This document shows positions 1,762 through 63,197 of a stretch of DNA of 64,000 nt, in pieces. This stretch comes from Branchiostoma floridae (taxonomy: Eukaryota > Chordata > Leptocardii > Amphioxiformes > Branchiostomatidae). Position 1 is the first letter of the stretch. Every line of letters begins with the position of its first letter. The notes beneath the pieces are model-generated. The model was not told where the DNA came from and searched no databases. It saw only the letters and a program-made list of their open reading frames with translations. The translations under genes and the position numbers were made by a program. Location: contig NC_049986.1 in assembly GCF_000003815.2 (NCBI RefSeq), forward strand, positions 19,538,692 to 19,602,691, in the 5' to 3' direction.

Positions 1762-4700
1762 TTATTTCCGGAAGACAATTTTCTCCAGCCCCAGAAGAGG
1801 CGCCTCCACCGTGACGGACACCAGGAACGCCAGGCCGTAGGACAGAACCAAGTTTCCCAGGAAGAAATAGATCTGGAATGAAATAAACCAATAGACGTAC
1901 AGTCGTAAGACGTTACAGAATTCATTTTAACACAATCCCTTAAAAATGACATCAACTTAAAGCAAACAAATGAATAAAACGAAAACAAAACTAGCAAAAG
2001 ACAGCCCCAAACCATGATTGTTACTGGCAGTGACTGTAGTACATGTACCTACGCCTGTAGGAGAGATGGGCACTATTGTCACATCTTAGGTAGGGTTAGG
2101 GGTACGTATGTGTACCTACCACAGTGAGAGTTGAGTAGTGTAGGGTGACCTCCCGGGTATAGAACGCCACGTAGCTGACTATGGTAGGGTTAGGGGTGTG
2201 GGTAGGGTTAGGGTTAGGGGTATGGGTAGGGGTACGATTAGTGTTAGGGGTACGGATGGGGTACGGGTAGGATTCGGGGTATGGGTAGGGTTAGCATATT
2301 ACATGTACCTACCACGGTGGGTGTGTTATAGTACATGTACCTACCACGGTAAGAGTTGAGTAGTGTAGGGTAACCTCCCGAGTGTAGAAAGCCACATAGA
2401 TGACCATGGGGTGCACCAGGTAGGCGCAGTACGTCAGCCGGCTCAGCGGCACCCACAGCTCCCACGATAGGAACGTGTTCACCAGTCCTGTAGGAGAGAT
2501 GGGCACTATTGTCATATCTTATGATCTTGTTTAATCCCAAATAATTTCAAGTATTGTTTGTGGTACGTCTGTCTGTCTGGACACATATAGTACGTCTGTA
2601 CGTCTCTGTCTGTTTCTCCCTGTCTCTCTGTATCTCTGTCTCTCTATCTCTCCCTCCCCCTCTCTCTCCCCCCTCTCTCTCTCCCTGTCTTGATCTAATA
2701 ATCTATATCTATTTATTTCTCCCTCCCTGTCTATATCTGTGCATAACCAATATGCACAACTCAGTGTTAGTGGTCGACAACCAGGCTACGCAGTAAAAGT
2801 CAAGTCACGATAAAATACAACTTCTTCCCAGCGAACTTTACCTAAACAAAAAGAACGCAACTCATACGACCTTGCATATTCGCATTCGTGTGACCAATCC
2901 CTAGTATGAGACAGGGACGGCCACATAGCAATATGAGTAATAAGGGTTCAACATGTCCAGTTTTCCTTATTACCTGGATGTCTACCCTTCATCGACGCGC
3001 TACAAAACAGTATTGACGAAAGCATTACCTCCATATCCGTAGAAGCAGGCTAGCACCATCCAGCCCAGCGCCATGCCCCACACGGCCCGGTGCACGCTGA
3101 GGTAGAACGCGTTCTCGGAGTTGGTCATGACGGTCCCGTGGTAGGTGCCGTACAGTCCGTACAGCACGGCTAGGGCAGTGGCGGTGGCGACCGCCCAGCC
3201 AACAGGAGCGACTATCATCATAGTCTGGAACAAAAGAAGAAATGAATGTGATAAGTCTTAAGTTTTAATGGACTAACTTATCAGTACCATATTCAGGCCT
3301 AATGGACTAACATGTCAATACCATGGTCATATCCAATGGACCAACATATCAGTACAACATACAGCACGGCTAGGGCAGTGGCGGTAGCGACGGCCCAGTC
3401 AAAAGGAGTGACGATCATCATAGTCTGGAACAAAAGAAATGGAGGTGATTAGTCAGATTTACGGTGCATGCTGAGGTAGAACGCGTTCTCGGAGTTGGCC
3501 ATGACGGTGCCGTGGTAGGTTCCATACAGCCCGTACAGCACGGCTAGGGCAGTGGCGGTGGCGACGGCCCAGCCAACGGGAGCAACAATCACCATAGTCT
3601 GGAACAAAAGAAATGATTAGTCAGATGTACGGTGCACAATGAGGTAGAACGCGTTCTCGGAGTTGGTCATGACGGTACCGCGGTAGGTTCCATACAGCCC
3701 GTACAGCACGGCTAGGGCAGTGGCGGTGGCGACCGCCAAGCCAACGGGTGTCTGGAACATATCATCATCATCAACACCATCATCAACGTCATCATCATCA
3801 TCATCATCTTTCATGGCAAAGGAACATGTTGTTATTAATACGTTACTCTTGTTGAGCCACCAGATAATGGCAACCGGTTAACCCGCTGTGCTCAGGAAAC
3901 GCCCCCGTCACCGATTTACTGTACGTTTAGTTATCCCTTGCCTGAGTGGAGCTAACCCTCCTCGCTCCGCTGTCTGCTCCGCCGTGCCGAACTTCGGATG
4001 CAGGTCGCCGAACTTCGGGTGCCTTCGCTCGGAACTCGCCGACGTTCAGCACCCGATCGGATGATCCCGAGGACTAGTACTTCATTTCGGGCTACACTCA
4101 AAACACCACCCCGGACAGTTAACAACAATTCCTTCGCCTACTGTCTATGAGTCTAATAAAGCGAACTTCGGTCCGACTGTATGAATGGCCATGCCAGGAA
4201 GTTCTGACTCACCTTTCGGTTGACAGAGCTTCCCTTGATCCTGACCATCAGCCACCCGACCGCCATGCCGACCAGGTACGGACCGATCCGGCACCACGGC
4301 TTCAGGTAGTAGTGCTCCATCCACTCCGGCCTGGACGGGAAAGTCAGGTTTGATATCTATTTATTCATCTTGGAAACCGTTTGGTTGTCCCCCAAGTCGT
4401 GCGATTGATTTTCAAGGGAGCCCAGCATGGATACGAAAAGGTAAACACACGTAGCTCCAAATTGTCGATGGCTATCAGTCCATCTTATTCATGGTGGGTG
4501 TGTTTACAATAACGTCAATGCGCATGTGCAAGTTTACGACAAAATCAGTACGTTTTGCGATAGGAGAAGACGCAAAAGATGCATTTTACGACATTAGTAT
4601 GGATTTTCGGCATATATTTGCTGGTATTGAAGCTGGTTTGAACGATGCTTGAAAACTTTTTTTTTTTTTGGAATCGGCCGAAAATTGGTGCGCACGCGGA

Positions 4701-7700
4701 TGTCATCCATGGAATCAAATCAACATGGCCTTATGGCATTAAAAAGCAGTCACTGCTTGATGAAAATTCTATTAACTGCGTACATACTAATGAATCTCTT
4801 TAACGAGGTAATACAAGTAAATCATAATTAATTCATAGTTAGCTTATATATATGCTCAATATACGGGCATTAAGAATAATGCAAAGGAACAAAATGCAAT
4901 CTTCTGGATCAAACACTTGCTGATTAGTCTAATTCAATGTTGAATTAGAAAACAACGAATGATCTAAGATGACAAAAATACTTGTTAAGTTCAATCACAA
5001 TACATCATATCACCAAAAGTACAAAAATACGTATTACATTAGGAAAGTATCAGGTCAGTGTAATAAAACATAATAAAGTGAAGATAGCCGTAGGAACATC
5101 CTCGACACAACAGCGACGTGTCATGAAAGAACGTAATGCTGAACGGATGATGAACGATAAAGACAAACATGTCTTACTGTGACATTCCGTAAATACTGGG
5201 GCTGAGTTTATCATGTAAGCAGATCACCGCTGTCGCGATGAAGCTCGAGAGAAGAAGAGCCAGCTTCAAGGCAAACCCAACAGGACGCCATCTGTTGAGG
5301 TTGGAACGTGTGTTAGTGACATCAGTTACATTTGTCAGTGCATCCATCTAACCTATATAAACAAAAGGAACGTGGCAAGGGTTTATCACGTTGAAAATAC
5401 GTCACGCATCGCAAACGTGCCCGTCTTTCCGTTCTGGGACGGAAATTTGCTTATTGGGACGGAAAGTAATTCTACCCCATCTGTCCCAAAAATTACATAA
5501 ACTGTTGAAAGGGTAATTTCATAAGCTTGAAATGACACATTTAACCAGGAAAATCAACAACATGGGCTCGCGCTCCCAAACAATGAGTGGGACGGAAAAA
5601 TATTCAAGCAAGAGGCAGCCCTGCTTAGTCAATGTGTATCTTACATTGAACTACTGTCAGTCAGGCCAGGATATCAGATACGCAATTAACATTTCATTTC
5701 GTGTATTAACTTACCTGAAAATCAGATATAGGAGAGGAACGCCGATGATGAAGAACTGCATGTCGTTCGCCAGGTACCAGGACCAGCCCATGCACTGGGG
5801 ACGGAAACGGCATTACATACGAAATTATTCATTTGTCTATTCATTCAACTCAAGACGGGTGGCAGCCCCTACAACTTTTGAAAGTTGATTTCCAAGGGTG
5901 GCAAAGCAATTATAGGCTTTTTGTATAGAATGTCCGGCACCTGTAATGACTTGAAGTAGTAAAGTTAATAAGTATTTATACCCAATGTATATGACCTCTC
6001 AAGTCGCCTTATCGTTAATGACACGTGAATTTTTTTTACGTTGTATGGGTTCAATATACATGTACGTTGCTGCGTGACAAGTTTTGTACTGTGATGTTTG
6101 TTGATGAGCTACAGTGGCGGGGCTATTAACCACTTAACTACGCACGCTAACTTGACAAGAATCATACCCCTCTCTCCGGATTGACGACGTTGTTGACGTA
6201 GAGGAGGTTTTTCCACCAGTCCGCCCCGTGACAGCCAGGGTCTAGCGCCTCGCCTGGCCAGAAGGGGCCGACGAACATGTACGGGTACACGCACAGCCAC
6301 ATCATCAGCACGAACGCGTAGGGCATCGTCAGTCTGGAAGAACATCGAATGTGTTAATGAAATAATTAGACATTATACAAGGGAAAGGGCTAGTAACATT
6401 CTTGTAAGAATGTATACCGTGCTACTGAAACAACAAGGAAAGATGCTACCCTGTACATGTGTAGCACAAGCAATTACATGGTGAGCAGCATCAGTTCAGT
6501 TCAGTTCAGTTCATCCTTATCTGGTGACGCTATGAAGTTCTTCCATACGACCCTGTCGCGCATGACAGACAGGAGAATTCTAATATTGAGGTAATAGTTT
6601 TTTCATGTAGCTAGAAGAGCGATGCTACGGCGAGGCTTTATATCAGACCCTGCTGTTCTCGAAAACTGTGTTTGGTTGTGTAACGAGCAAAGGTTGGCAC
6701 CTGAGGCCTTCAGACTGAAGGCTTACCGTCTCCTTTAAAGAATAAAGAAAAGTCTAAAGTGAAGTCATCACAATCCAGTACAATAACCCGAAACTTTTCA
6801 GTGCCTTAGAGCCTTGCTTTTTGATGAATCTGAAGTTGATAACAAATGATATAAAGCCCTTTATTTACCTCCAGTATCTGTGCACGTACATCATCCAGTA
6901 CGGGATGGACTGCCCCTTCTCCCTGCTCTTCTGCATCTGCTTCAGCAGCAGGTAGGCGGTCAGCAGGCCACTGGAAGTAGGGATCGCGGATTTTAGAAAG
7001 GGGCATTGCAAAATCCACGCAGTACATTTCATCGGAAACATGATTAATGAATCATATGACAAAAGAAATGCAAGGAAGTCTGAAATATGGCGTTTTTTCT
7101 TCGTGTTTTCCACATGTAATATTCTATGCCACCATATGGTCACTGAAAAATTTTCTCGATGGCAGGCAGCTTTCTATGTATCATCATGATACATTTGTAT
7201 TTGACAATTTCAGTATGAGAATCTCATGAACAACTGACATAAGTCTTATCAACAATTGCTCTCTCACCTTAGAAAGAAGAAGGAGTCGACCGATACGAAG
7301 GCGTTTCCGACAGCCTGAAACGTGAACTGTCCAATAACCTCCAGAGCCAGCGATCCGTTATCTGGGGAGAAGACAACACAATGTACATAGTTGATGTCTT
7401 GATGGCATGGTTCATATCATATCATTATTGTCAGCTGCTTTTTCATCGTGCAGTTTTTTTTTTTGTCTTCGAGAAAGTGGATTCGTCTCTCACAAAACCA
7501 GTTTCCTGTCCATCATCAACTTTTCCGCATTTTGAAAAAAAAACTAACTTTACCAACACGGACAATAGCTGGGATTTTCACAGACAGAATGGACCCTTCA
7601 ATTGCCGCTTCCGGAACGAGACTTTAGAGACACGTAACTTCAGAAACTGAACAGTGAAACTGAAAATGTGCCAGAAAATTGAACAGAGACGGGGGTTGAC

Positions 7701-10700
7701 ACAGGTTATCTGGAACCTACGACCCGTTGGTTCAGGCATGCTAGTTCATCTTTATCAATGGATTAACCTATAACCTAAACCACGGACTTTTTTCGTAATA
7801 TTTTCAAAATATTACAGAGTGAAACTATCGCCCATCGACTTGGCGATCCCAAAGTACCCTATTTGTAGATACAACGCATATGGGGCACCCCACAGATAAA
7901 GATGAACTAACGTTAGCAAACACCTACCAATGACAGGAGAAGTGACTACGTAGGTGCGACCCAGGATGACCCAGCTCATATTGGGGAAGCGGATGCTGTG
8001 GAGACATTTTAGATACAACGAATATGGGTTACCCCACGGATAAAGGTGAACTGACGTAACAAAGACCCACCAATGACAGGTTCGGCGAAGGCGTAGGTGT
8101 GCCCCAAGATGACCCAACTCATACTGAGGAAGCGGATGCCGTGGAGACACTTGATCGCTCCGGGAGCCTGACTGGTGCTTAGGAGCTTCCCGATGTTCGT
8201 GTAGAGGGAGAAGCACAGGAGGACACGACAGGACACATCTGGGGAAGAAGTTGATAAAATTGTGTCTTAAATGAAGATTAGAAGCATTCAATATGAATGA
8301 TGATGATTATCTTAAAATATGTTCCTGCCCACATGGAATAAATGCAATAATTCGATAGTGTGACATGGGATACTAATAGCTAAGTACTATTACATGTAGT
8401 GTGACAAATGAATGTTTGGATAAACAAATAATCTGGAGCTTTGCTATCACTATATCTATTGTTTACATGCCTCTTAAAGAGTTTCGTTTTGCACAACCGT
8501 TGCTTTATTTCCTCCAACGTTTCTGTGACAGTCTGTCACCTTCCTCTGGCCGGGGAAATGCTGAGAGGTTTGCATTTCACTGCAGGTTAGTAAGGTGTCG
8601 CTGCTAACAGACGCGGTCCCAAACATCCCAATTCCAATAAAAAGACATTTGTCATCTTCAAAGACAAATTTGTCAAAGTGACAAGAAGAGGCGAATTTAC
8701 TCTGAACAAAGGGCGGTACAATTGTTTTGCAATAAAGTAATCGGTTGTTCCAAAGAATATACAACGTTTCCTATTTTGATATACATGTCTGTCTTGTGCG
8801 GAACTTACTTTCTTCCTTTGTCGCCACTGCTTCTGTTTGTTTCTGTTCAGTCGAGTTGATGAGGTGGGTCCGCTCGTTCGGCTGCTCGCTGTCGACGTGC
8901 TGATGCGATAATCCACCGTTCCTTTCGTCTTTTGGGTCCTTTGACAGTAAACAAGAAATTCTTTTATAAAGCTGACCACGCAAGCTAACATGTAACAGTA
9001 GGGATGAAACGTTGACAGAAGATACTTTGTAAGTAAGATGAAAAGAACCATATTGGCACAGTGCCCAATCCTAGCAGAAAGGGAGAAGATCATGATAAAG
9101 CACAGCAGACACGACATCGCAGACGAGCCCAGTAGCCCTGTAGTAGCCTGCATGTCAAGTGCTACCTACCAACGTTATGCAACTCCTGTATTTTGCGCTA
9201 AACAGCCGCAGCTCATATCCCCCCCCCCCCCTCCAGACCAGGAAGCCGGTCAGTCGGGCACGATGTTTGTCAGATACAGTAAGCCCCCATATGACATGAT
9301 CATTTATGAAGTGATAACCTACGTCTTTGCTTATAATAAACATATCTTCCACTCTTCTTTCTGTCATGTCTGCTACATCCGAAAGACAGATGTGATAAAA
9401 AAAAAGAAGAATCAAATTTTCAAGTCAAATTAAAAGAAATAGTGTTTCAATTTTGTTTTGTTTTACTGAGACACATCTGTGCAGGTACCCGTGCAATGGC
9501 CAAGAATGTTAGTCGTGAGTATCAAGCCAAATCATACCAAAGACTTTAAAAATGGCACATGCTAATTTCTCTGCTTGTCACTCAGCACGTTAGAAAGAGA
9601 ATGGTAGTTAACCATTAACACTAACAGTGGAATACCACACTACTGTAGTGAACGCACAAAATGGCTACAGAAACAAAGATGGGCGCCGCCCGATGCACCA
9701 TTTGGTATGGGGAGGACTTTTTTCTGAGCTGTGACGCTGAAGGTAAAGGTCGCAGGGTTGGCAATGTTTCCTCAACCGTTACGGATCTTACACAAGCGAA
9801 AACAATAAACATGACCTTTGGAAAAAAAATCCATGAAAGGAAGCGTTGTCAAGTCTTTAGTACGAAGCATTAAGCATTAATGCCTCCAAGCGGCTCAGGT
9901 CTAGGTTCTTTGTATCCTTTCTCATGCAAGATCCTTTTTTCTCAGTTATGTAGTCTTCTATGAAATAAAGGAACCAGACAATCATTGCGAGCAACAAGAA
10001 CGTATTTCGGCTAAACAAACTTGTGATGAGAAGACGGCTGCTTGCGATGGACAACAACGTCTACAGAGAGGCCTGCAATGTCTACGACTCCTGCAACGAG
10101 GATGGCTCCAACGAATACGAGGAGGCCTGCAACGTTTACGATAACTGCAACGTGGATACTTGCAATGACGGGGAGGAGGCCTGTACGGTCTCTTCGTCGA
10201 GGAGTTCGGCAGAGAGGAGGGCCCCTGGCCTGAACACCGCCACCGGAGCATCAGACTTGCCAGGAGAGTCAGGTAAGGTACCGTGCAGTTTAGGAATATT
10301 CTAGAACCAAGGAACATCAGATAAAGGCACGATTTACCGAATACTTGCAGGCCACAGTGACGATATCAAGTTCTTCTCGTGAAAAACGCAATAAAGAGAT
10401 TTTCAACCACATACCTAGTTGTACCACAATAGAAATATTTCAAGAGTATCCCAGAGATTGAGATCATGAATTTATGCATTGACCATTTTTTTCTAATATT
10501 TCTTTGCGCAACAGAAATTATGATACGCAAAACTGAACACTGTAAATGACAAATAAAAATCTATACGTCCAACAGATTTGTCTAGTTCTCAGACTAACGA
10601 CAACCGTAACGCCACCGACACTGAACGCGCCTCAGATGGGACCGCAGAGTACATCCCGGGGGTCGGTATGAAGGGCCCTGGTCAGTCCCGGGTCTGGAAC

Positions 10701-13700
10701 AGCGCCGTGCTGAAGGTCGTCATTGTGGTTATCTTCGTTCTCATCTTCTGTCTGATGGGCACTGTTATCTTTCTGGGTGGGTGCGCAGTTTTTATGGAAA
10801 ATTTCTAGTAGGAATTGCAACATTCAGTGTGGCAAAAATGTGCCATAAAGTTATCATCCATGAATTACGTTTTTTTTAAGGTCAGACATTCACGTGAACA
10901 ATTTTTAAAGGCAATTCAGTATCTTCCACTTCAAATTGAAGAATTATTTTTCGCGTTGATTTTAATAATACTAACGGAGATTATGGATGTCACCCGAAAC
11001 GTACGGAAGTAATTTTTCGTTTGGTTGTAGAGATTGAATTGTCTTCAAATAAAGTTCTTCATCTATTCATTTATTCATTCTTTCATTAATACAGCCGACG
11101 AAATGTCGGATCTTAAACTGACAGTCAGCAAGCTAGATAAGATAACGGAGAAAGCTTTGCACGATGCTGCGGCCAGCGTGGTACAGCAGGACGACTCTGA
11201 AATAGGAAAAGGGAGGAAGACACGACATCGTCAGAAGACGCTTGAAAAAATCATGACAAATCTACAAGACAAACCGAAGGAAGAGTACGCTTCGACCCAC
11301 CTATTAGGTAAGAACAAACCGTTTGTAATATATTTAGTTAGACCCGTCTCCGCTACTTAAAGTGTGCCCTAGTGGCACACATGACTTTTCAAAAAAATAA
11401 AACAAAATCACTTGTTCATGTTTACATACGATACGGATGGTACCACATTGTTAAAGACGGTTACAAGAAGTATCGTGAAGTCTGCTACAAAGCCTTCGAT
11501 ACCGCGAAGAATTTCTCCAAAGCAGCCGACACCTGCCGGGCCGACGGAGGCACCCTCGCCATGCCCCGAGACGTCGAGATCGACGCCTTCCTCGTCTCCC
11601 TGAAGAATGCGGTAGACCCGGATTACTTCTTCTGGTTTGGCTTACATGATGAGGGACAAGAGGGCAAGTGGAAGTGGATAGACGGCACCGACCTGGGGAC
11701 CGGATATAGCAAGTGGGGTGACAGGGTGTTCATCTACAATTCAGAACTTAAGGACTGCGCCTTGTACAGGGTGAAGGACTGGCTCCCATGGCTTTGTGAC
11801 TGGGCTTTTCTCTTCATCTGCCAAGTCATGCCGTCAGGTTAGTATCTTCTCACGAGCTCATGCATTTAATTCACGAATAAAAACATCGCGCTGATTGCTG
11901 AATGATGTGAATTCTTTCCGTGGTGTGACAAATTCCTAGCGAGGAATTTCGAAAACCTGTTCAAGACGATACAGCTTAGGTCAGTCTCATGGAGATTTCG
12001 TCATTGTAGACATTCGGTAGTCCTTAACAATTTGTTCGTCACAACTATCTTCGGTGTTGGTTGTGTACCTGAGTTGACAGCTAAACCATGCAAACGTAAA
12101 CAAATGTCCTTTACTTTTGCAAAATTTTAGGAAAGCATTTGCTTTAAACATTATCAATATCTACATGTATGGTAAAATCATCACAGTAGTACTAGTAAAA
12201 AGAATCGAGACAATTCATTGAATTCGTATTTCTTTCAGCAGTTCCAGGCTAGTAACCATGTGCTCAACTATGCAAAGGGACATCGACTTCTGGTGTTCTG
12301 ACATCTGGATGTGAAGATGACTTAGATGTTGCTAAGTTATGTAGAGACAGTCAACGTCCATTATATGTTGCGCCAGGTTTGCTTAGAGAACAATACACCG
12401 GCGTGTGTCTGCTTATCTACTTATGCTATAGTCTCATTTCGAAAAATGGGACACTCCGGGGCAGTTTCTGCACTTTCGGGCGTGACCACAGGAGAACATT
12501 TTCTAGCAGTCGGAGAATACAAAATGCCGCATATAGTAGTATGATATTTGAATATTTTTTTATGTTAGGAAAGTGGTCATGAGCTGTGATAATGGAAATT
12601 TCTTTTTTATATCTGAGTCATTATTCAAATATGACTGATTCTTTAAACAGTACGTGTAAGCACTTATTTGTCGCTGTAATCGCCAAATGCAATCAAGATA
12701 CATTTTCAAACTGACTCAATTGTATCTTTGGCGATACCCCCTGAATATGCAACGAAATACAGAAGCCACATATTCACATGTGGTCAATTAATGCATCAAG
12801 CTTAGCCTTTTATGTTGTGGGATGATATTTTAATACGTGCCTGATTATAGAAATTTCAGGTACAGTGAAACCTGTCCGAGCAACCACCTGGCGCGGGCAA
12901 CCACCTGCCGTCAGAGGACACATTGAAACAGTCCCGTCCATTTTTACATAGTTAAGACCCCCTCCCAAGCAACCACCTGTCTTCCCCAACCGGCAACCAC
13001 TTTTTTACAGTCCCAAAGGGGCATTCAACCTGCCCCAACCAACCAAAATTGATTGACAGCAGCTAGCAGCCAGTTTATATGAAGAATTATGTACTAGGCA
13101 CAGTTACCCTGGACTTCTTTTCTTTATGTAAGGGAATATCAGTCAAGCATATTGACAATGTGCACCGTGCAAATTGATTATCAGTGAAAATTTTGACATC
13201 CTGGTAGAGAAATTGAAAGCACTTGTTTGGGCTGTTCAAGGAAACAGACAACTACAAAACAAACCATTTTTGATTGTTAGAACTCAGCTCTGATTGTTAA
13301 ACAATGGTTTCTTGACATAACAGCATGGGGATTGAAAACTGTGCATCTCTTGTAGATATGTTTCCTGACAACTAACTGAAAGGTGTATATCATGCGAACC
13401 GTATCATTTATTATTTTTGTTCGCCAACCAACTTGTCGGGAGCAACCACCTGTCCTCGGCAACCATTTTTGCTCGGTCCCTTGAGTGGTTGCTCAGGACA
13501 GGTTTGACTGTATATGTAAAATGAATACATTGAAACAGTCATTCACTGAGAAGAGCATACTTAGTCAGAAATGTCAATATGCACCAGAGGGTAGCATTTG
13601 TGAGCAATTGCTGGGTATTACCTATATTATAATAGCTATTCCCCACATTTGGTGCGGAAAGGAATTTAACCTCTAACTTTTTGTCTGAGCTGTGAAGCAG

Positions 13701-16700
13701 GAGGCACAGAGCGCAGGGTCAGCAATGTTTCCTAGATCCTCTACCGTTATGGATCTTAGGCTAACGTCACAATTCCACAAAGGGGCCCGGCCTGGCAGTT
13801 TGGGGGAAGGAAAAGTACGATATAAAAGACAAGAAATACACAAAAATGACCAAAACTAATTCAACACCATGCCTTGTGCATATTTATTGGCATAAACTTT
13901 AATTTTTAGTGTCCGCTAACAGTCCGGCCGGGCCACGGTTTGGAAATGTGACGTAGGCCTTACACAAACACAAATAATAAACATGACCTTTGGACAAAAT
14001 ACACGAAAGGCAGTGTTGTGAACTTGATTGGTCTGCGCGTGCCGTCGGTTACACTTGCCACGTCTTCGGTACGAATAGGTGTGTGTGTGTGACTAAATCT
14101 TAGATATACGAATGGGGGATTTAAAATCATAATTCAAAAGTCAAATTCAAAAATACTCTCTCAGTTTTGGAGACACATCTGGTCAAGTATCAGTGCAATG
14201 GCCAAGTGGGTAAAGTTTTCGCCTTGAGTTCTGCATCTAGCCGCGTCACACAAAAGACTTTAAAAATGATATATGCTACTTTCTCTGCTTAGCACTTTTC
14301 TCTACTTTCTCTGAACACACACACACCACTATCAGTAAACTAGCCCCCTGCTGTAGAGATTCTGCAAAGCTGAGTGGCCTAGGGGTTCAGAAATGGAGAT
14401 GGGCGCTACCCGATGCACCATTTGCCCACCGTGATGGAAATTACACAAACAAAACCAATAAACATGACCTTTGAAAAAAAACATGTACGACGGTGTTGTG
14501 AACTTGATTGGTCTGCGTATGACGTCAATGACACGTGCCACGTCTTGGGCAAGAAGGTGAGGGAAGTTGAATGAAACATTAAAGCCTTCGAGCGGCTGCC
14601 TTCAAGGCTCTTTGCATCTTATCCTCGTGCATAGACATGTTTTTTACAGCTGATTGAATTCATGTAACCTACTGGCAACGTAGGAACCAGACAATCACTG
14701 TGGGCGTAAGACATAACAGAGAAAAACAAGTTTTGAACGTTTAAAAGCTTACATTTCGGGTAAACAAGCTAGTTGTGGAAACACCGCTGCTTGCGATGGA
14801 CAACAACGTCTACAAAGAGGCCTGCAACGTGAATGTTTCCGATGTCTACAAGAAGGCCTGTAATGTCTACGACTCCTGCAACGAGGATGCCTGCAATGAA
14901 TATGAGGAGGCTTGCAACGTTTACGAAACCTGCAATAATCAGGGGGAGGAGGCCCGCACGGTCTCCCCGTCAGGGATTTCAGCAAAGAGGAGGGCCCCTG
15001 GCCAGAACCACCCCGCTACTGGACCATCAGACGTATCAGGAGAGCTAGGTGAGGTACCGAACCGTTAGGAATTTGTAAGAACAGAAACTTTGAATAAGAA
15101 TTTAAACCACGATTTCCTTGTAGGCGAAATTTAACCTTATTCAGACGAGATGGTGGGTTGTGTGGGGAGGGGGCGCCAACTTTCATGTCGCATAACGCTA
15201 AGACGGCTTATGCTAGAGACACAAAATTTGATAAGTTTTCCTTAAAGATTGTGAGCAACAATTTCACGAAGTTTGAAACATTTTCAATTTTGTTTCGTGC
15301 TGCCACGGTAACCATTTATTGACAGGCAGATTGGACAAAAAGCGCTAATTTCGGTTCTAACAAAATACCTTTATATTTTTGTAATATTTCTTAACGCAGC
15401 AGAAATTACGCAAAAATGGACACTGGATATGATATATTAATTTTTTCGTCCAGCAGGCTTGTCCAGTCCTCAGACTAACGACAACCGTCAAGCCAACGAC
15501 CCGGGACCTGCCTCAGCTGGGACCGCAGGGTACATCCCAGGGGTCGGTATGGGGAACCCTGGTATCCCAGGGGTCGGTATGGGGAACCCTGGCATCCCAG
15601 GGGTCGGTATGGGGAACCCTGGTCAGTCCCGAGTCTTCACCAGCGCCATGATAAAGACTATCGCGGTGGTGACCTTTGTTCTCATCTACTGTCTGCTGGG
15701 CACTGTTATCTTTCTGGGTGGGTTCGAATTTCAACATGTTTTGCTGTGGCCAAAAAATGTGCAATAAAGGTATCCATATAGAATACAACACGGTGTATTC
15801 CGTATCACCCGAGGCTTCAGCCCGACCGCGGGTCGGATCGCCCGACGGCCGAAGGCCGAGGGAGGGCTGAGATCGAGGGTGATGCCGTATACACCGTGTT
15901 GTATTTCATTTATGTCATACCCACCTGAGAAAACCCATGTATTGATTTGAAACGCGCCAGAAGTTGAACAGATTTGGTGCCCTCGAACAAAAAGTGTTGC
16001 AACAGCAATGTTCCAACGTTCGAATCAGGTATTCGTATTCGGCCCGCTTGAAACAGTTCGATTTATTCGAATGGAGCCTGTGTGATACACCTTTCGAACC
16101 GGTCTGATACGGAAGTTACGGCCCGGTCCGGAACACCCGTATCGAACGTTTTCGCGTCACAGGTATGGCATAAATACGTTTATGAAGGTTCGATATATTC
16201 AATCTCTTCAAATGGATGAAAGTCGGAGATTTACTTCCGGACGTTTCGAGTGGCACCCATCACTCTTTTTCACATGTTCATTAACCTTTTTTTTTCAGTT
16301 AGATGTATTTGTATTGAATTGTTCTGCTAGTTCATTCAAATAACTCCGAAGAAGAGTGATGAATGTCACTCGAAACGTCGGGAAGTAGATCCCCGATTTC
16401 TATGCAGTTGAAGAGATTGAATGTCGAACCTTCATAAACGTACGGATTCCTTTATTGCACATTTTTGTCTCACCAAAACATGTTCAAAACATGTTATTCT
16501 CGGATTTTATTCCAGTTGCAGAGATTGAGTTCAGTTCAATTAGAGATTGAATTGCATTCAAATAAAGCTTTATTTATTTATCTAATGATAGTCTTTATTA
16601 CATTATTACAGCTTTGGAAGTGACGGATCTAAAACTGACAGTCAGCAAGCTAGATTGGAATGACAGCGAGTTGACAGCTTTGCACGATGTTGTGTCTAGC

Positions 16701-19700
16701 TGTTCACCGCTGGACGACTCTGGGCTGGGGAAAGAGGAAAAGACCCCGAAACGCCCGAAGCTGGAAGACAAACCGGAGGAAGAGTCCGCTCCGACACACC
16801 TAGGAGGTAAGAACAAACCGTTTGTGATATATTTTCCTATACCCATCTACACTACTTATAGAGTGCTCTAGCGGCCCGATAGAGCACTCATGACTTCCCA
16901 AAAGCGAATAAAAAACTTAAATTAACGCCTAAAATACATAATTCACCTTTTTATGTCTTCGAAATGATACGGATGGTGTCATATTGTTGACAATCATTTT
17001 GGTACCCTGTTTTTCAGCTGCCTGCCTTGACGGTTACAAGAAGTATCGCGAAGTCTGCTACAAAGCCTTCAACACCGCGAAGAACTTCTCCGAAGCGGCC
17101 GAGACTTGCCGGGCTGACGGAGGCACCCTCGCCATGCCCCGAGATGACGGCATCGACGCCTTCCTCGTCTCCCTGAAGAACGCGGTAGACCCGAAACGCT
17201 ACTTCTGGTTCGGCTTACATGACGAGGGACAAGAAGGCAAGTGGGAGTGGATAGACGGCTCCGACCTGGGGGCCGGATATAGCAGGTGGGATGACGATGT
17301 GTCCGTCAAGAATCAGGAAAAGAAGGACTGCGCCTTGTACTGGAATGGGCTGGAGGAGTGGGTTGCCTGGTACTGTGACTGGGAGAATCTCTTCATCTGC
17401 CAAGTCCTACCGTCAGGTAAGTACCATTTTACAAGCTGATCAATGTTTTTGTTTCAGGAATAGAGAAGACATGCTGAATTTTATAGATATTCTGCATGGT
17501 GTTAACCTTATCTCGACCAGACTTTTGGAGCCTCTCTGAGACAACTTGAACGTTGACTAATTAGGCATCTTATCAATATCTAAGTCTGCCAAGTATTCTG
17601 TTGCAAATGACGACGGCACTGACGCCAATATGACGTCAGAAAATGTCCACCATCTTTAATTAGCAGGCTTGAATTTTGTAAAACACGTTTGTTTTCTACA
17701 TATATGTCCCCAAATCCTATGTAAGTCACTAAAAACGTTCACATATGAAGAGTAAACGACGTTGACGAAATTTGAGACAAGATGACATGGTCCGCGATCT
17801 TGGATTTTGACCAATGACAAGTTCGTTGTATAGTAAACTCATACCATCTTTAGTACGGGTAACTTAAAATGAAACATTATGTTACATCCACAAAATGAGC
17901 AGACAGCAGTAATTTTACTGCAGATGACCCTCAGGTCTACTAATTCAACCTCTTCGAATTCATATTTTCTTTAGCAGCTCCTGACAAGTAACCGTGTGCT
18001 CAAGTATGGAAAACGGGACCGGCTTCAGTCGTGTAACTGGTGTTCTGACACCTGGATGTGAAGATGACTTAGATGTTGCTAAGCCAAGTCAAGCTAAGCC
18101 TTCTGTGTTGGAGGATAATATTTTCAATAATTTATTGTAATTGCAGACACAAGTAAAATGAATACATTGAAACAGTCATTCACCGAAAAGAGCACTTAGT
18201 GAGAAATCTCAATATGAACCGGTAATATTTGTAAGCAAATGCTGCATATACCCTATTCCCACGTTATGTGCGTGAAGGAATTTTTTCTGAGCTGTGAAGC
18301 TGTAGGCAAAGATCGCAGGGATAGCAATGTTTCCTAAACCGGTATGTATCTTGCACAAGCAAAACAATAAACATGACCTTTGGAGAAAATCCATGAAAAA
18401 CAGTGTTGTGAACTTGATTGGTCTGCGTATGACGTCAGTGACACTTGCCACGACTTTGATACAGGGTGGGGGTAAGAATCGAATTCCTTAATCAAATTCA
18501 AACATACTCTTTTAATTTCTTTTTTTTTCTTTCTATTTTGGAGACACATCTGAGCAAGTACCAGTGCAATGACCGCAATGGGTAGAGTTTTCGCCTTCCG
18601 GTCGGTAGGTCTTGGGTTCTTTATTTAGCCGAGTGATACCATAGACTTCAAAAATGATACATGTTGTTTACTCTGTTTAGCACTCAGCATTTGGGAAAGA
18701 GTATAGAAGTTGAACACACACCACTACCAGTAGATAGCCCCCTGCTGAAGTGATCGCACAAAGCTTTGTGGGCAACGCAATGTTTCTTCTACGTTATGGA
18801 CCTCACTCAAGCAAAAATAATAAGCATGACCTTTGGACAAAATCCATCAAAGACAGTATTCTGAACCTGATTAGTCTGTGCGTCTTTGCTACAAAAGGAC
18901 GGGGTAGGGGAGCTTGTATTAAGCATTAATGCCTCCAAGCGGCTACCGTCTAGGTTCTTTGTATCTTTTCTGATTCAAGTATCCTTTTTTCTGAGTTGAT
19001 GTAAGTCATGTAGTCTTTCGGCAACGTAGGAACCAGACAATCATTGCGAGCGTAAAATATAACTCCCCCCCCCCCCCCCCCCAAAAAAACCAAGAGGTTT
19101 GTGTGCATTTCGGCTAAACAAACTTGTGGTGAGAAGACGGCTGCTTGCGATGGACAACAACGTCTACAGAGAGGCCTGTAATGTCTACCACTCTTGCAAC
19201 GAAAATGGCTCCAATGAATACGAGGAGGCCTGCGACGNNNNNNNNNNNNNNNNNNNNNNNNNNNNNNNNNNNNNNNNNNNNNNNNNNNNNNNNNNNNNNN
19301 NNNNNNNNNNNNNNNNNNNNNNNNNNNNNNNNNNNNNNNNNNNNNNNNNNNNNNNNNNNNNNNNNNNNNNNNNNNNNNNNNNNNNNNNNNNNNNNNNNNN
19401 NNNNNNNNNNNNNNNNNNNNNNNNNNNNNNNNNNNNNNNNNNNNNNNNNNNNNNNNNNNNNNNNNNNNNNNNNNNNNNNNNNNNNNNNNNNNNNNNNNNN
19501 NNNNNNNNNNNNNNNNNNNNNNNNNNNNNNNNNNNNNNNNNNNNNNNNNNNNNNNNNNNNNNNNNNNNNNNNNNNNNNNNNNNNNNNNNNNNNNNNNNNN
19601 NNNNNNNNNNNNNNNNNNNNNNNNNNNNNNNNNNNNNNNNNNNNNNNNNNNNNNNNNNNNNNNNNNNNNNNNNNNNNNNNNNNNNNNNNNNNNNGACTAC

Positions 19701-22700
19701 GACACCGTAACGCCGTCGACACTGAACGCGCCTCAGATGGGACCGCAGAGTACATCCCGGGGGTCGGTATGAAGGGCCCTGGTCAGTCCCGGGTCTGGAA
19801 CAGCGACGTACTGAAGGTCGTCGTTGTGGTGGCCTTCGTTCTGATCTTCTGTCTGATGGGCACTGTTATCTTTCTGGGTGGGTGCGCAGTTTTTATGGAA
19901 AATTGCCAGTAGGAATTTCAACATGTTTTGGTGTTGTAAAAATGTGCAATAAAAGTTTCATCCATAAATTACGTCTATGAAGAGGCCTATAACGTTTATG
20001 AAGGTTAGACATTCAGGTGAACATTATTCAAAGGTAATTCTATATCTTGAACTGGATGTGTTGCCCGTTCATTCTAATTAATGCCCGGTTGTAGAGATTG
20101 AATTGTCTTCAAGTAAAGCTACTCATCTGTTCATTTATTTTCTTTCATTAATACAGCCGAGGAAATGTCGGATCTAAAACTGGCAGTCAGCAAGCTAGAT
20201 ACGAAAACGGAGACAGCTTTGCACGATGTTGAAGCCATCGTGGCAAAGCTGGAAGACTCTGAGCTTGGGAAAGAGGAGAAGACACTGCATCGCCAGACGA
20301 ACCTGGAGAACAACACGACGAATCTACAAGACAAACTGGAGGAAGAGTACGCTCCGACCCACCTGCGAGGTAAGAACAAGACGTCAATTTTCCTAGACCC
20401 GTCTCCGCTGCTTTAAGGATGCTCCAGTGGCCTGTTACTAAAGTGTAAGAGCACACACTTACCAAAAACCAATGAAAAACTCAAATTAACGCCTAAAATA
20501 CATAATTCACGTTTCCATGTCTTCCATACGATCCGAATAGTGCCACATTGCTGAATACCATATTGGTCCTCTATTTTTCAGCAACCTGCCCGGACGGTTA
20601 CAAGAAGTATCGCGAAGTCTGCTATAAAGCCTTCAACACCGCGAAGAATTTCTCCGAAGCGGCCGAGACCTGTCAGGCCGACGGAGGCACACTCGCCATG
20701 CCCCGAGACGCCGGGATCGACGCCTTTCTGGTCTCCCTGAAGAACGCGGTAGACCCAAATCGCTTATTCTGGTTCGGCTTACGTTATAGGCGACAAGAAG
20801 GCAAGTGGGAGTGGATAGACGGCACCAGCCTGGGGACCAACTACAGCAGGTGGTCGGGTGGTGTGACCATCTACAATCCAGAACGTCGGCACCGCACGTG
20901 CACCTTGTACAGGGTGAGGAAGTGGCTCCCCTTGCACTGTGACGTTGCGTTCTTCTTCATCTGCCAAGTCCTGCCGCCAGGTTAGTACCATTTAACAAGC
21001 CAATGCATTTGTTTCAGGAATGAAGAAGACATGCTGAATGCTGTCAATTATTTGCATGGTGTTAAGATTTTCCTACCAAGGGTAACAAAATGTCGGCGAG
21101 GAATTTTGAACACTTGTACGTAATCGAGTCAATCCTTCTGAACCTTTGGTAATCCGTAAAATTCGTAAAAGTCCCAACTATCTTTAGTGTTGGATGGGCA
21201 ACTGAGTTCTCAGCTATGACATGTATATACAACCAAATGCCCCTCATTTTCGCAAAGTTTTGCAAATCATTGACACATTGTCAATATCTATTTCGTATTG
21301 AATACTTTCTATTTATTTATTTACATGTATTGATTAATACGTGTAGTTCTTGACAAGTTCGCTGTATGGTAAAATTCAGCCCACGTTTAGCAAGAGTAAA
21401 TCAAAATAAAACATTTTATCACATAAAAAACAAATAAGCAGACAATGTTGTTTTTTTTAATTAATAAACCTTAGGTTCATTAATTCAACCTCTTTGAATT
21501 CATATTTCTTTCAGCTGCTCCTGACAAGTAACCGTGTGCTCAAGTATGGAAAGCGGGACCGGCTTCAGTCGCTAAACTGGTGTTCTGACACCTGGATGTG
21601 AAGATGACTTAGATGTTGACAAATTATCACATTTAGAGACAGTCAAAGTCTATTTGATGTTGAGCCAGGTTGACGTAGAAAACAATGTACGTCAATAACT
21701 AATGCTATAGTAGTCCCACAAAGAAAAAAGGGCTCTTCCGAGTAGTTTATGACCTCTTTTTCTGCAATTTTCAGGCTTGTACCCTACGCGGTCCGGTCGG
21801 ACAGCCTGTGGCTATCGGGCTATTTTATGGCACGGTAGGGCCCAAAGCAATAGATGCCTTGACCTATGTCAAAGATGACCGATGCATTTAACAGTACAAG
21901 TACACATGTATTTGTCTATGTATGCGTATCGAGACGGATACAAAACATTGAGAAGCTACATAGATGCCACCCAAAGTCAAATGTAGTCAATATAGAGTTT
22001 TCTCCACTGTAAGCAAAAACAATAAACATGACCTTTGGGGAAAATGCACAGAAGACAGTGTTGTGAACTTGATTGGTCTGCGTGTGACGTCAGTGACACT
22101 TGGTACGAATGTCATTTCTTTGGTACGAGTGGGGTGTGACTAAATCTTAAAATTACGAGTCGGGGATTTAGAATTAAAGTTCCTAAGTCAAATTCAAAAA
22201 TACTATCTCAGTTTCTTTTTTTCCTGTTTTGGAGACACATCTGATCAAGTATCCGTGCAATGGGAGTTTTGATACCTTCCAGTTGGTAGGTTGTGAGTTC
22301 TGTATCCAGCCAAGTCATAGCAAGGACTTGCTGCTGTCTCTGCTTAGCACTTAGCATTTGCGACAGGGTATGGAAGCTGAAAACACACACCATTTCCAGT
22401 GAACTAGCCCCCTGCTGGAGTGATTGCACAAAGTTGTGTGACCCAGGGCTACAGAAACGGAGATGGGCTCTGCCCAATGTACTATTTTGTTTAGAAATGA
22501 CTTAAACATGTTGCCGTGAAGCTGTTAGCAAAAATCTCGGGGTAAGCAATGTTTCCTCAACCGTTATGGATTTTACATAAGCAAAAACAATAAACATGAC
22601 CTTTGAAAACTCCCTGTACGCCAGTGTTGTGAACTTGATTGGTCTGCGCGTGACGTCAGTGACACTTGGTACGAATGTCATGTCTTTGGTACGAATGGGG

Positions 22701-25700
22701 TGTGACTAAATCTTAGAATTTGAATTAAAATTCCTAAGTCAAATTCAGAAATACTCTCTCAGTTTCTTTTTTTTCTGTTTTGAGGACACATCTGATCAAG
22801 TACCAGCGCAATGACCAACTGGGTAGAGGTTTCGCTTTCCAGTCGGTAGGTCGTGAGTTCGTGTATCTAGCCGTGTATCTTGCCGCGTCACACCAAAGAC
22901 TTAAAAAATGGTACATGCTGCTTTCTCTGCTTAGCACTCAGCATTTGGGAGTTGGGAGTTGAAAAGACAACATTATCGGTGGACCAGCCCCCTGCTGCAG
23001 TGATCAAACAAATCTGTGTGGCCTAGGGGTATAGAAATGGAGATGGGGGCCACCCGATGCACTATTTGCCCACCGATGTGTATGTTATGACACAAACAAA
23101 ACCAATAAACATGACCTTTTAAAACCCCATGTAAGACAGTGTTGTGAACAGTTCAATTTGATTGGTCTGTGTGCGACGCGCGACGTGCCACGTCTTTGAC
23201 ATGAACGTGGGGACATGTTGAATAAAGCAAAAGCCCCCGAGCGGCTTCCTCCTGGGGTCTTTGCATCTTATCCTCGTGCAAAGACAGGGTTTTGTCATCT
23301 GATTAAATTCATGTAATCTTCTGACAACGTAGGAACCAGACAATCATTGTGGGCGTAAGACATAACAGAGGAAAAAGACAAGTGAAGTGGTGTTGAACGT
23401 TTGAAGTCTTAAATTTCGGCTAAACAAGCTAGCTGTGAAAACACCGCTGCTTGCGATGAACGAAAACGACTACAAAGAGGCCTGTAACGTCTATGATTCC
23501 TGCAACGAGGATGGCTCCAATGAATACGAGGGAGCCTGCAAGTGCAACGTTTACGAAAACGATGACCAGGGGGAGGTCTCCTCGGTCTCTCCGTCGAGGA
23601 TTTCAGAGGCGAGGAGGGCCCCTGGCCTGAACTCCGCCACGGGAACATCGGGCTTATCAGGAGAGCCAGGTAAGGCACCGTACAGTTTAGGAATATGGCA
23701 GAAGCAGCCATTAAGTATCAAAGAAAGGCACGATTTACCGAATACTGCAAATGCAGAAATGTTCGCGGTGGATTAATGTTCGCGGTTTTCGCGGCGGCCG
23801 CTTCACCGCGAATTTAAAACCACCGCGAACATTTTTCCATAACAGTAAGAGACTACAGTGCATAGTGCTACCGCGAAATTAAAACCACCGCGAAAAGTCC
23901 ATTTTCCCGCAACCGCGAAATTAAATCCCCACGAACTTAGATGCATTTACGTAGGCCACAGTGACGATACAAAGTTCTTCTCTTGAAAACGTAATAAAAA
24001 GGTTAAATATCCCTACCTTTTATCTAGTTGTACCACGGTAAGAAATATTACAAAATTATTACATGGACTCATAAACTGATGTTTTGACTTTTTTTCAATA
24101 TTTCTTTGAGCAGCAGAATTACGCAAAACTGGACACTGAATATAATTTTTTTTCGTCCAGCAGGCTTGTCCAGTTCTAAGACTGACGACAACCGTAATGC
24201 CGACGACCCAGGACCTTCCTCTGCTGGGACCGCAGGGTATCCCAGGGTCGGTATGGGGAACCCTGGTAAGTCCCGGGTCTTGACCGGCGCAATGGTGACG
24301 ATCATCACCGTGGTAACCTTCGCTATGATCTTCTGTCTGCTGGGCACTGTTATCTTTCTGGGTGGGTGCGCAGTTTTTATGGAAATTGCTAGTTGTAATT
24401 TCAGCATGCTTTTGTGTGGCAAAGACCTAAAATAAAGATCCATACGTTTCTGAAGGGAAGATATTCAGCTAAACAATATCAAAAGGCAACTCAAGCTCTT
24501 CAACTGGATAAACGTCGAATGTTTACTTCCGGATGTTTGAGTGACACCCATCACTCTTCTTCAGAGGTATTAGAATGAACTGACAGGTGGACATGTCCAA
24601 CCTTTTTTCAGTTAGCTGTATCTGTTTTTCATTGTTTTGCCAGTTCATTCTAATGATACTGAAGGAGAGTAATGGATGTCACTCGAAACGTCCGGATGTA
24701 AATCTTCGATTTTTATCCACTTGTACAGATGAAACTGTCTTGAAATAAACGTCGTGTTCATTTATTCTTTAATCCAGCTTTGGAAGTGTCCAATCTAAAG
24801 CAGACAGTCGGGAGCCTAGATACCAAGACAGCCGAAGGCAGCTGAATTTCAGGCAAACGTTTCTAGCTGGATGCAACAGGTAGGCCGAAAATCATCTCAT
24901 GAAACAACATTATGACAAGGTGGAAAGCTTTTAACAACTTTTAGATATACATAGGACAACCCTTTTTTTCTGGAATTATGGTAACCAGGAGTGCAGTGTA
25001 AAAATTAAGGAGATATTTGAAATTATGTGCACCGGACTGCTCAGGTACAGAAACTTATAAAAAAAATCTTTCAACATGTTTAAAGGATTTGACATATATT
25101 TTGCAGCCATAATTATGAAACAGGACACTTGATTTACAGGCCATGGGAACAACAGGTGACGATGTTGCAACCAGCGTGGCACATCAGGCCTACTCTGAGT
25201 TGGGGAAAGAGACGACGACACCACAACACCAAAAGGAGTTGGGAATCGACACGATGAATCAAGACAAACAGGACAAAGAGACCGGCGCTTTTGGGCTACA
25301 GTTATGACCCATATAAATAAATGCAGTGATCCATTTTTTCACCATATTCATGATACGAAATTTACAATCCACACAAAAATGTTTTGTCATGTCGTCCAAC
25401 AAGACGCTAAGCTAAGCTCACTATGTTGGAGGATAATACTGTAAATGCATTTAAGTTCGCGGGGATTCAATTTCGCGGTGGCGGGAAAAAAGGACTTTTC
25501 GCGGTGGTTCTAAGTTCGCGGTAGCGCCATAGTCTCTTACTGCCATGGAAAAAACATTAAACCCCCGCGAAAATTTCTGCATTTGCAGTAGTTTAATACG
25601 AGCCTGTTTATAGAAATTGCAGAAGCAAGTAAAACGAATACATTGAAACAGTCTTTAGCCAAGAGAATACTTCGATAATCAGAATATAGCAAATGCTGGA

Positions 25701-28700
25701 TCCCCCCTCCCCCATGAATGACCAGAGTGGACTATTCCGTATTTTTCTTGTTTGTTATTCTTCGGGTAATAAGACATTGCCTATTTTACCAATAATATAA
25801 GTTGATACTAGTAATTGATCGTCATACAAATATCAATCTTGTGATAGCAAGGCAGCATTAGTGAGCAAAACGTTATCTGAAGTACATGTTTGTACAATTA
25901 CAATCTTTATATGAAGGACACTTTGATCATCCTTGCATAGGACGTCAAAATATACCATTTTCAGTAGTAAAAATAAAACACGTGATGAGAATAATGGACT
26001 TTTTCTCACTATTCAATGGGTGTTTTTCAGGGCCACCACGTGTGTACCAGTATGAATAAATCTAGAAGTAATTATTTGATCCATTCATTATTAATTGAAT
26101 GAAGGTTGAAAATTGCACACTAGCCCGACATTTTTGGGGTGTGTGTGAAGAGATAGAGTTCGCTGCCAATCTTTCGAACGGTCGATTCATAATTGGGAGG
26201 AGGGGCAAGGTTTCACTTTCATTATAGACATTCTTTGCAAAAAAATCACACACCATGGCCAAGCGCACAGCAGCAAAGGTCAACAACTGTTCCACATTCC
26301 ACGAAAATAGGGGTGATTTTTTAAATGTTACATTGCCATCAAGAAAGTTAAATTATACAGAAGTGGATTGACGCGCGGGTACCGCCTAACCAAGTACCAA
26401 AGTATATGAAGATACGCAGAACCGATCGTGGGGTACAGAGGTGACTCTCCTTACCCGGAGGTAATAATCAGAATCATTGTGACGTAATTGTCAACATACC
26501 TTACTGCTCTTGATGGCGCCTAACCTCGGTTGGTAGATGATGACGTCATACGCGGTTCCCATGACGACCAGCATGAGGATGACGCTACAGACACAGCTGG
26601 AGGAAACAACAGTCAACTCATACGTCTGCCAAATAATAGTCTCTCAAGCAACTAGATATGATTTTGGAAACGGTCAGAGGTTGAAAACAAGTTAGCTGCC
26701 CCAAATCATACGATACAGTTTGGGAAATTTGGATATCGCTAACGTTTCTACAATTAATTGATTCTAGTGGCAAAATTGATGATGATGATTTACCATCAAA
26801 AAGTACCTGCTATTTACCATTAAAATTGTCTGTTCATGGTTCATTATACAAATTTAATATGAAAGCTATGTCATTCTGGACTAGAAACAGTAGAAATCCT
26901 TACATAGCAGCAATAGTCTTGCTGTGCATGGGGGCGGATTCTGGTGACGTGGCTGACGTCACCTGCAAGGTGCCTCTCTCAACCAGCAGCCGGAAGTACA
27001 GACCTGGAACGGAGAAGTGGCATGCGGTAAGTCGCGGGTTCCATCCCTAGACAAAGTCGTACCAAAAATTCAACTTGATGAGGATCAGAGCCTTTATTCA
27101 GAGGACTGATCAAAAGCTTGTTGGTGCGCGATGTATTTGATGTACGGATACGCATATAAAGTTTAAAATTGCAAAATGATGTTGATTACCGTAACAAATG
27201 AACTTACATTCTCGTACCAAAAATGTTAGAGTCACTGGCACATAGTGCTCCCCTACTCATCACTCATTACTTAGTGTGGAAAACGTGTGCTACCAGTGGA
27301 ACAGACGACTGTCACCATGGTTACATCGTTGCATGGCTACTGGTAATGTTTCAGACACCCAGTGCTGTTCCATTGCATAATGGGCGTTTCAGGTTAATAT
27401 TTTGCATAAAACAAGCCCCCCCCCCCCAAAAAAAAGAACAAGAATGTAGCAAGTGGCAGGACAGAGCTGGGGGAGCTAGCCACCACACACATACATATAT
27501 ACGACCTATGTGTGTGTGTATGTGTGTGTGTGTGTGTGTGTGTCTGTCTGTGTCTGCGTCTGTGTGTGTGTTTGACTAACAATGCAGAGAGCAGTATTTT
27601 GTTAGGCTAAGCCATGTGAAGGTAGAAATTATGTATTTTCTTGTAAATTTTACCTTTCTAGTGACCAAATGTCTCAAATAAAATTTGTATTGTTTTGACT
27701 CACTGTTGTCCAGTCTCTGTATGACGTCATCTGCAGTACAGGAGCTCGGGACGCAGACTCCCAGGTGTAGCGTGATCGCACCATACCCTGATGCCTGGGG
27801 AATAAGCATCCAAACATGCGAAGATCTGAAAACTTTGTATCAAACCAAATATGTATCGCTTTATATGTATAACCTAATATTTGTCACTACACATGTATAA
27901 CCTGATATGAATCACCTAACATGTAATAGTTTAATATTACCATCAGAAAAAGTGAGTCAAACGTCAATCATCTGTATCTGTATGGCAGGTATAACCGCTT
28001 TTAGGCATTACAAATCAGCTTTTTAACCTGTATCTTTATAGCTGGCATAGCCGACCTTTGGCATAACACACCAGCTTCTGTACCTGCATCTATAATGCCG
28101 TAACTGTTCTTCGGCATAACACACCAGCTTCTGTATCTGTATCTCTATAGCCGGTATAACCACCCTTCGGCGTAACACACCAGCTTCTGTATCTATATCT
28201 CTATAGCCGGTATGACTGTTCTTCGGCGTAACACACCAGCTTCTGTATCTGCATCTAAATTTATACAGCCGGCATAACTGTTCTTCGACGTAACACACCT
28301 GGTCCAGCTTCTGTATCAGTATCATTTTAGCGTAACTCGCCAGCATCGCAGGCAAACGGTGCAACACTGCAGCTTGTTCACTGAACGCCATGTCATACCT
28401 ATTTTTGCATCGAATTCTAGGTTCTGTTTGCATATCTAGTGAGGATTTATTTTTCCTTTCCTTTCAAGTTTCATCAACGTAAGATAGATATCTTCCCTCA
28501 CCTCCACAGACAGCTGTGCGGGTTTCGGGACAGGCACCAGTGTTGCTATGTAGTACTTGGCATCGAAGGTGCTTCCGAACCCCTTCTTGGTGACATTCAC
28601 ACATTGAGAGTAGCTCCCGAGCCAGTTGAAGTTCCCTTCTAGGATCCCACTGGGCGGCTTGCCACCGGCGTCCAACACTGTGCAGGGATGAGTTTGATGG

Positions 28701-52440: not shown

Positions 52441-63197
<10,757 letters not shown>

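Follow-up and report, generated by a model that had tools for sequence, protein, structure and literature searches.

A C-type lectin-like gene array lying antisense in one intron of an NRF-6-like acyltransferase gene of the lancelet Branchiostoma floridae

The stretch of Branchiostoma floridae DNA analysed here (the window, 64,000 nucleotides (nt), C8:19538692-19602691, from a genome of 513 Mb in 431 contigs) carries two paralogous acyltransferase genes on its minus strand, which we call A and B, and a cluster of C-type lectin-like units on the plus strand that falls inside a single predicted intron, intron 6, of gene A. All gene models come from splice-site scoring combined with homology anchors, on sequence alone, and splicing and expression are predictions throughout.

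Gene A and the lectin units in its intron 6

Fifteen of the 17 exons of gene A (exons 3-17) could be rebuilt into an open protein of 628 residues; exons 1 and 2 were not found by splice scoring and homology. Pfam places NRF (PF20146, 62.2 bits) and then Acyl_transf_3 (PF01757, 65.8 bits) in the rebuilt protein, and by this content gene A belongs with the NRF-6-like (nose resistant to fluoxetine) acyltransferases. Between exon 3 and the stop codon it appears intact. NRF-6 acyltransferases share the same two-domain architecture, and what lies in the intron is the sole peculiarity of gene A. Exon 6 ends at 26500 with AAG/GTATGT and exon 7 starts at 8938 with TCAAAG/GACCC (the slash marks the splice site), giving a phase-0 junction with 17,561 nt in between. 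The original prediction of a phase-0 join over this 17.6 kb is borne out insofar as both splice sites can be read and the spliced protein is colinear with that of B. The rebuilt A and B proteins (B was modelled as 14 exons, with the N-terminus left out) are 47% identical over 638 columns, in an alignment that crosses the exon 6/7 join. As had also been claimed, the remaining boundaries correspond across exons 3-17 of A, all 13 shared junctions being equal in phase (13/13), and A has one additional phase-0 junction at a segment, the transmembrane (TM) helix plus polar linker, that B indeed covers in a single exon. One junction of the B model (46508/45933) is the second-ranked candidate and was picked by homology. 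The host features, with positions counted from the start of the window, are as follows.

1762 to 8238, minus strand: host exons 8-17 overall, a splice-scored chain colinear with B, PF01757 at 65.8 bits
5291-5178, 4330-4213, 3224-3029, 2487-2345, 1872-1762 (stop), minus strand: host exons 13-17, acyltransferase-3 domain
8238-8071, 7361-7268, 6970-6869, 6333-6168, 5794-5715, minus strand: host exons 8-12, acyltransferase-3 domain
8809 to 8938, minus strand: host exon 7, encoding the polar linker (NERTHLINS), entered in phase 0 and left in phase 1
8939 to 26499, minus strand: host intron 6, 17,561 nt, contains the lectin array
8949 to 9165, no strand assigned: dispersed repeat, copies on C156, C9 and C11 at 76-78% identity, ends 10 nt before exon 7
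26500 to 28678, minus strand: host exons 3-6 overall, a splice-scored chain with B homology and PF20146
28678-28502, 27794-27704, 27003-26904, 26596-26500, minus strand: host exons 3-6, NRF domain and first TM segment
34000 to 46663, minus strand: paralog gene B, 14 exons rebuilt
44601 to 44812, minus strand: exon of B with TM and linker in one piece, without an intron

Intron 6 holds four tandem paralogous units on the plus strand, antisense to the host, and 12,339 of its 17,561 nt are stretches that recur elsewhere within it; whole lectin units sit between two coding exons of the single host gene A. Each unit follows the same plan of N-terminal, TM and stalk exons, to which units 1-3 add a lectin exon, and phase-1 junctions fall at corresponding positions in the units. 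Four lectin units on the opposite strand had been predicted, and their number and orientation stand. The lectin domain, in contrast, is present in three of them only: Pfam Lectin_C (PF00059) scores 61.3, 71.8 and 63.1 bits in units 1-3 against a cut-off of 22.6, and comparison of protein and DNA found no lectin domain for unit 4 between 24.6 and 26.7 kb. In the following list CTLD stands for the C-type lectin-like domain.

9407 to 12394, plus strand: lectin unit 1, extent approximate
~10026-10272, ~10576-10776, ~11095-11303, ~11457-11842, plus strand: N-terminal, TM, stalk and CTLD exons of unit 1
13958 to 18129, plus strand: lectin unit 2, all four exon types
14775-15048, 15457-15717, 16612-16806, 17018-17439, plus strand: N-terminal, TM, stalk and CTLD exons of unit 2
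18131 to 21686, plus strand: lectin unit 3
N-terminal running into a run of N at 19238-19694, TM from 19695, stalk to 20369, CTLD 20582-20985, plus strand: exons of unit 3
22010 to 25672, plus strand: lectin unit 4, extent approximate, without a lectin domain
23435-23669, 24164-24361, from 24778 and 25159-25280, plus strand: N-terminal exon, TM exon and stalk pieces of unit 4

Judged by eye, the CTLD exon of unit 1 has lost its consensus acceptor, and the AAG that follows preserves the frame. The most likely products of the units are type II membrane receptors, composed of a cytoplasmic tail, one TM segment, a stalk and a CTLD. This is a build shared with the type II C-type lectin-like receptors of natural killer (NK) type, and the likeness is one of build only; the best matches of the lectins in the PDB are multi-CTLD proteins (the yolk sac IgY receptor and LY75), with NKG2-D and tetranectin lower down, so no orthology is claimed. 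Tails and stalks gave no convincing family in Pfam. The N-terminal exons (for example 14775-15048) have a pre-TM tail rich in repeats resembling NVYDSC or NVYETC, which might possibly be tyrosine signalling motifs.

Duplicated exon pieces occur in both acyltransferase genes. In the stretch 3003-3877 (minus strand) an acyltransferase exon of A (GWAVATATALAVLYGLYGTY) at 3224-3029 has three partial tandem copies upstream of it, which could be alternative exons or exon remnants. The WVILGHT exon of A has duplicated pieces at 7861-8153 (minus strand) with a period of 143 nt, and B, on the same strand, has duplicated pieces of its WVILGHT, YVHRYWR and GWLAATG exons near 43151, 39292-39377 and 35676-35830. 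Another host intron contains a tandem array of 56-nt period at 27970-28331, whose element matches more than 100 places genome-wide.

Age of the host intron

Two origins had been offered for the difference between A and B, namely gain of the intron in A, possibly along with the lectin array, or its loss from B. A genome search returned 20 NRF places including A and B, and 10 of the other 18 were read; the TM exon is alignable in seven of these 10 paralogs and not in L029, L031 and L038. Six of the seven testable paralogs have a phase-0 AAG/GT at the very codon where exon 6 of A ends, five of them (L032, L033, L034, L036 and L037) with a donor score above 1 and L035 with a weak donor recognised by eye; in the seventh, L030, a phase-0 AAG/GT lies two codons earlier. 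The linker exon follows after an intron of 299 nt in L032, 561 in L033, 306 in L034, 623 in L036 and 152 in L037, where the linker exon of L036 is the second-ranked candidate, picked by its resemblance to the other linkers; L035 yielded no convincing candidate for this exon. Paralogs on other chromosomes have this splice position too, which takes the coincidence beyond chance. In a tree of 11 rows and 97 columns A, B and L032-L037 separate from L029, L031 and L038 (100/100); within the former group B and L035 pair at 85/86, which is below the level relied on.

The simplest account of these observations has the intron already present in the ancestor of the group of A, B and L032-L037 and lost in B, in line with the second of the two origins. 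Gain of the intron in A finds no support, because the paralogs carry the phase-0 donor at the same codon (six of seven) together with a short intron (152-623 nt in five). Intron 6 of A would then be older than the lectin array and would originally have been short.

Relatives and divergence of the lectin copies

A search extending 100 kb to each side revealed a fifth copy of the lectin unit, U5, some 20 kb upstream of B (C8:19611530-19606217, minus strand). U5 matches the nested units in its exons and in both its 5′ and 3′ flanks, which indicates that the lectins were copied at the DNA level; retroposition is rejected, the units having retained introns and flanks. With the N-terminal and TM segment as query, the whole genome gave 13 matches, of which 10 are nested, one is U5 and two lie on C9 in opposite orientation (L039, C9:17723010, minus strand; L040, C9:17732101, plus strand). 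The intron matches 1,677 nt of U5 sequence at the DNA level, as against 530 nt for L040 and 424 nt for L039, and U5 is by DNA the nearest relative of the nested lectins; in the lectin domain, U5 is 54-57% and L040 48-49% identical to units 1-3. Synonymous divergence (dS) is 0.28-0.32 between U5 and the nested units and 0.27-0.34 among the nested units themselves, and from this resemblance little time probably separated the copying from the expansion of the array. There is no sign that U5 is itself nested: within the 100 kb on each side, where the genes beyond U5 are unannotated, NRF-gene queries matched A and B only. The CTLD of U5 lies in two exons, and loss of the intron in the lectin domain was considered as a mark of nesting and dropped, the CTLD of L040 on C9 being in one piece too.

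The lectin domains of units 1-3 have diverged unevenly. In codons 1-54 the ratio of nonsynonymous to synonymous divergence (dN/dS) is 0.05-0.17 with a proportion of synonymous differences (pS) of 0.23-0.27, in a comparison of three sequences over few codons; after codon 54, in the binding half, dN/dS is 0.82-1.15 and pS 0.21-0.27. The contrast disfavours the idea that the units are long-dead pseudogenes, and the conservation of the first half is not readily put down to gene conversion, because synonymous differences are alike in both halves. The pattern fits receptors that would combine a stable core with a free ligand face. Calcium-dependent sugar binding by C-type lectins involves an EPN or QPD motif with a WND-type site. 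Inspection by eye of units 1-3 found no EPN/QPD-type sugar/calcium motif with a WND-type site, and the relative L040 on C9 has QPD...EDC...WYD. With the EPN/QPD-type motif absent, the nested copies are expected to be without calcium-dependent sugar binding.

Proposed origin, rival readings and known nests

The account that we favour, and consider likely, is that an old, short intron of an NRF gene was invaded antisense by a neighbouring lectin-receptor gene, which went on to form four units by tandem duplication. In the order of events that we infer, a lectin-receptor gene from nearby on the chromosome would have been copied as DNA, introns included, into the short intron 6; tandem duplication inside the intron would have produced the four units, and the lectin domain would later have been lost from one of them. 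The 17.6 kb would simply be spliced out of the host primary transcript, and the lectin units, whose exons are separate and lie on the opposite strand, would need promoters of their own to be transcribed. At the presumed cell-surface location the lectin-like domain would keep a core conserved among the nested copies, with its ligand-binding part free to diversify. Host and lectins need not be functionally linked under this account.

Several observations weigh against parts of this account. The acceptor of exon 7 at 8938 is weak (splice score 2.5), and an in-frame acceptor at 9070 is stronger (5.5); use of the latter would add 44 residues without a counterpart in B, and it falls within the dispersed repeat at 8949-9165. 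With that repeat stopping 10 nt short of exon 7, part of the acceptor's pyrimidine tract appears to be repeat-derived. The age of the intron was judged from 10 of the 18 other NRF places, three of which lack a testable TM exon, and further A-like acyltransferase copies lie on C16 outside the NRF list, near 1.49-1.52 and 14.48-14.51 Mb, as two small clusters with 83-87% DNA identity in one exon. For the TM exon alone, the relative at C9 17732101 is about as close to the nested units as U5 is (65% over 43 residues versus 60% over 42), and the dS values (0.28-0.32 versus 0.27-0.34) do not fix the direction of copying, whether from the neighbour into the intron or the reverse. Over the whole lectin domain dN/dS among units 1-3 is 0.55-0.61, and for codons 1-54 compared with U5 it is 0.61-0.67, both over few codons; with the latter value, the constraint on the first half is seen among the nested copies only. 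Removal of the 17.6 kb by splicing and lectin expression are both predicted from sequence.

Had A gained the intron and the lectin array together, in a single insertion that created its own splice sites, then the lack of the intron in B and the dispersed repeat that ends 10 nt before exon 7, overlapping the acceptor pyrimidine tract, would both find a ready explanation. The phase-0 donor at the same codon in six of seven paralogs, in the seventh two codons earlier, and the short intron followed by the linker exon in five speak otherwise, and we give the single insertion next to no credence. A comparison of the two intron edges (8800-9500 versus 25200-26650) for target-site repeats gave no common 11-nt word in either orientation. 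A misplacement of the lectin block into gene A during assembly is suggested by the repeated nature of the units, which makes them prone to bad assembly, and by a 457-nt run of N inside the block. That run (19238-19694, within unit 3) is the sole one in the intron, however, and its length equals the distance between the matching points in unit 1 (10135-10591), while both host/lectin boundaries lie in N-free sequence and the nearest DNA relative of the lectins is on the same chromosome near gene B. The intron flanks (2.8 kb and 2.4 kb) have one full-length match each, the window itself, with no second full-length copy of either among the 40 candidates scored for each (of 3,074 and of 2,048, respectively), and no second haplotype copy of the locus was seen in the assembly among these candidates. 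An assembly error is on these grounds very improbable.

It is distinctly unlikely, too, that exons 1-6 and exons 7-17 are now two separate genes with the lectins lying between them instead of in a working intron. The exon 6/7 join is predicted from sequence, the acceptor at 8938 is weak, and an intron of 17.6 kb is about 28-115 times as long as those of the five paralogs, all of which such a split would accommodate; yet each half reads open and in phase and follows B colinearly, the rebuilt frame contains no stop, and paralogs share both the donor and the linker exon. The nesting might instead be functional, with host transcription regulating the antisense lectins or with co-expression of the two. 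The geometry alone speaks for it, and in the TipE locus of insects the nested genes correlate with one another and poorly with their host (PMC3240667), which makes a functional role unlikely in our view. Somewhat less improbable, though still doubtful, is the idea that the short ancestral intron serves as a harbour in which a diversifying receptor array is gained, lost and rearranged between individuals at no cost to the host gene, and that the lectins, having given up the sugar/calcium motif, are NK-like receptors for self or microbes. Given the over-representation of C-type lectin domains among genes of variable presence in two lancelets (PMC12373286), some haplotypes may carry the array and others just the short intron. 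The invasion of an old short intron by a neighbouring lectin-receptor gene thus remains the account that we prefer.

The architecture of a nested cluster is not new, having been published for insects (PMC1891103, PMC3240667). In the GMC cluster a tandem family lies in a single intron of an unrelated gene, flotillin-2 (Flo-2), and nearly all of its genes are antisense to the host, as in the lancelet (PMC1891103). That report describes an intron of more than 83 kb in Drosophila near the host coding start, and a nest that encodes enzymes and is found in four insect species, whereas the lancelet intron is 17.6 kb long and mid-coding, and its nest of receptor-like lectins was read in one genome. 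The TipE/Teh sodium-channel subunit genes likewise form a family cluster inside one host intron, the last of CG18675; there the nest is kept in most of the insects compared and in D. melanogaster also holds VhaM9.7-c (PMC3240667). A literature search, mostly without subscription papers, turned up no paper on the present locus or on an intron-nested lectin cluster. The locus would be a clear chordate case of a receptor-like family expanded in one old intron, and because several paralogs in this genome still have the intron in its short state, the states before and after can be compared directly. C-type lectin domains are over-represented among genes that vary in presence and absence in two lancelets (PMC12373286), and the locus offers a place to examine such variation for lancelet lectin genes.

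At the far end of the window, at 62832-63194 (plus strand), an exon similar to the ARAGRFG exon of a DEAD-box helicase occurs three times in tandem. The gene whose 3′ end lies at about 63.0-63.2 kb, before U5, is presumably a DEAD-box helicase, a name that we assign from its motifs.

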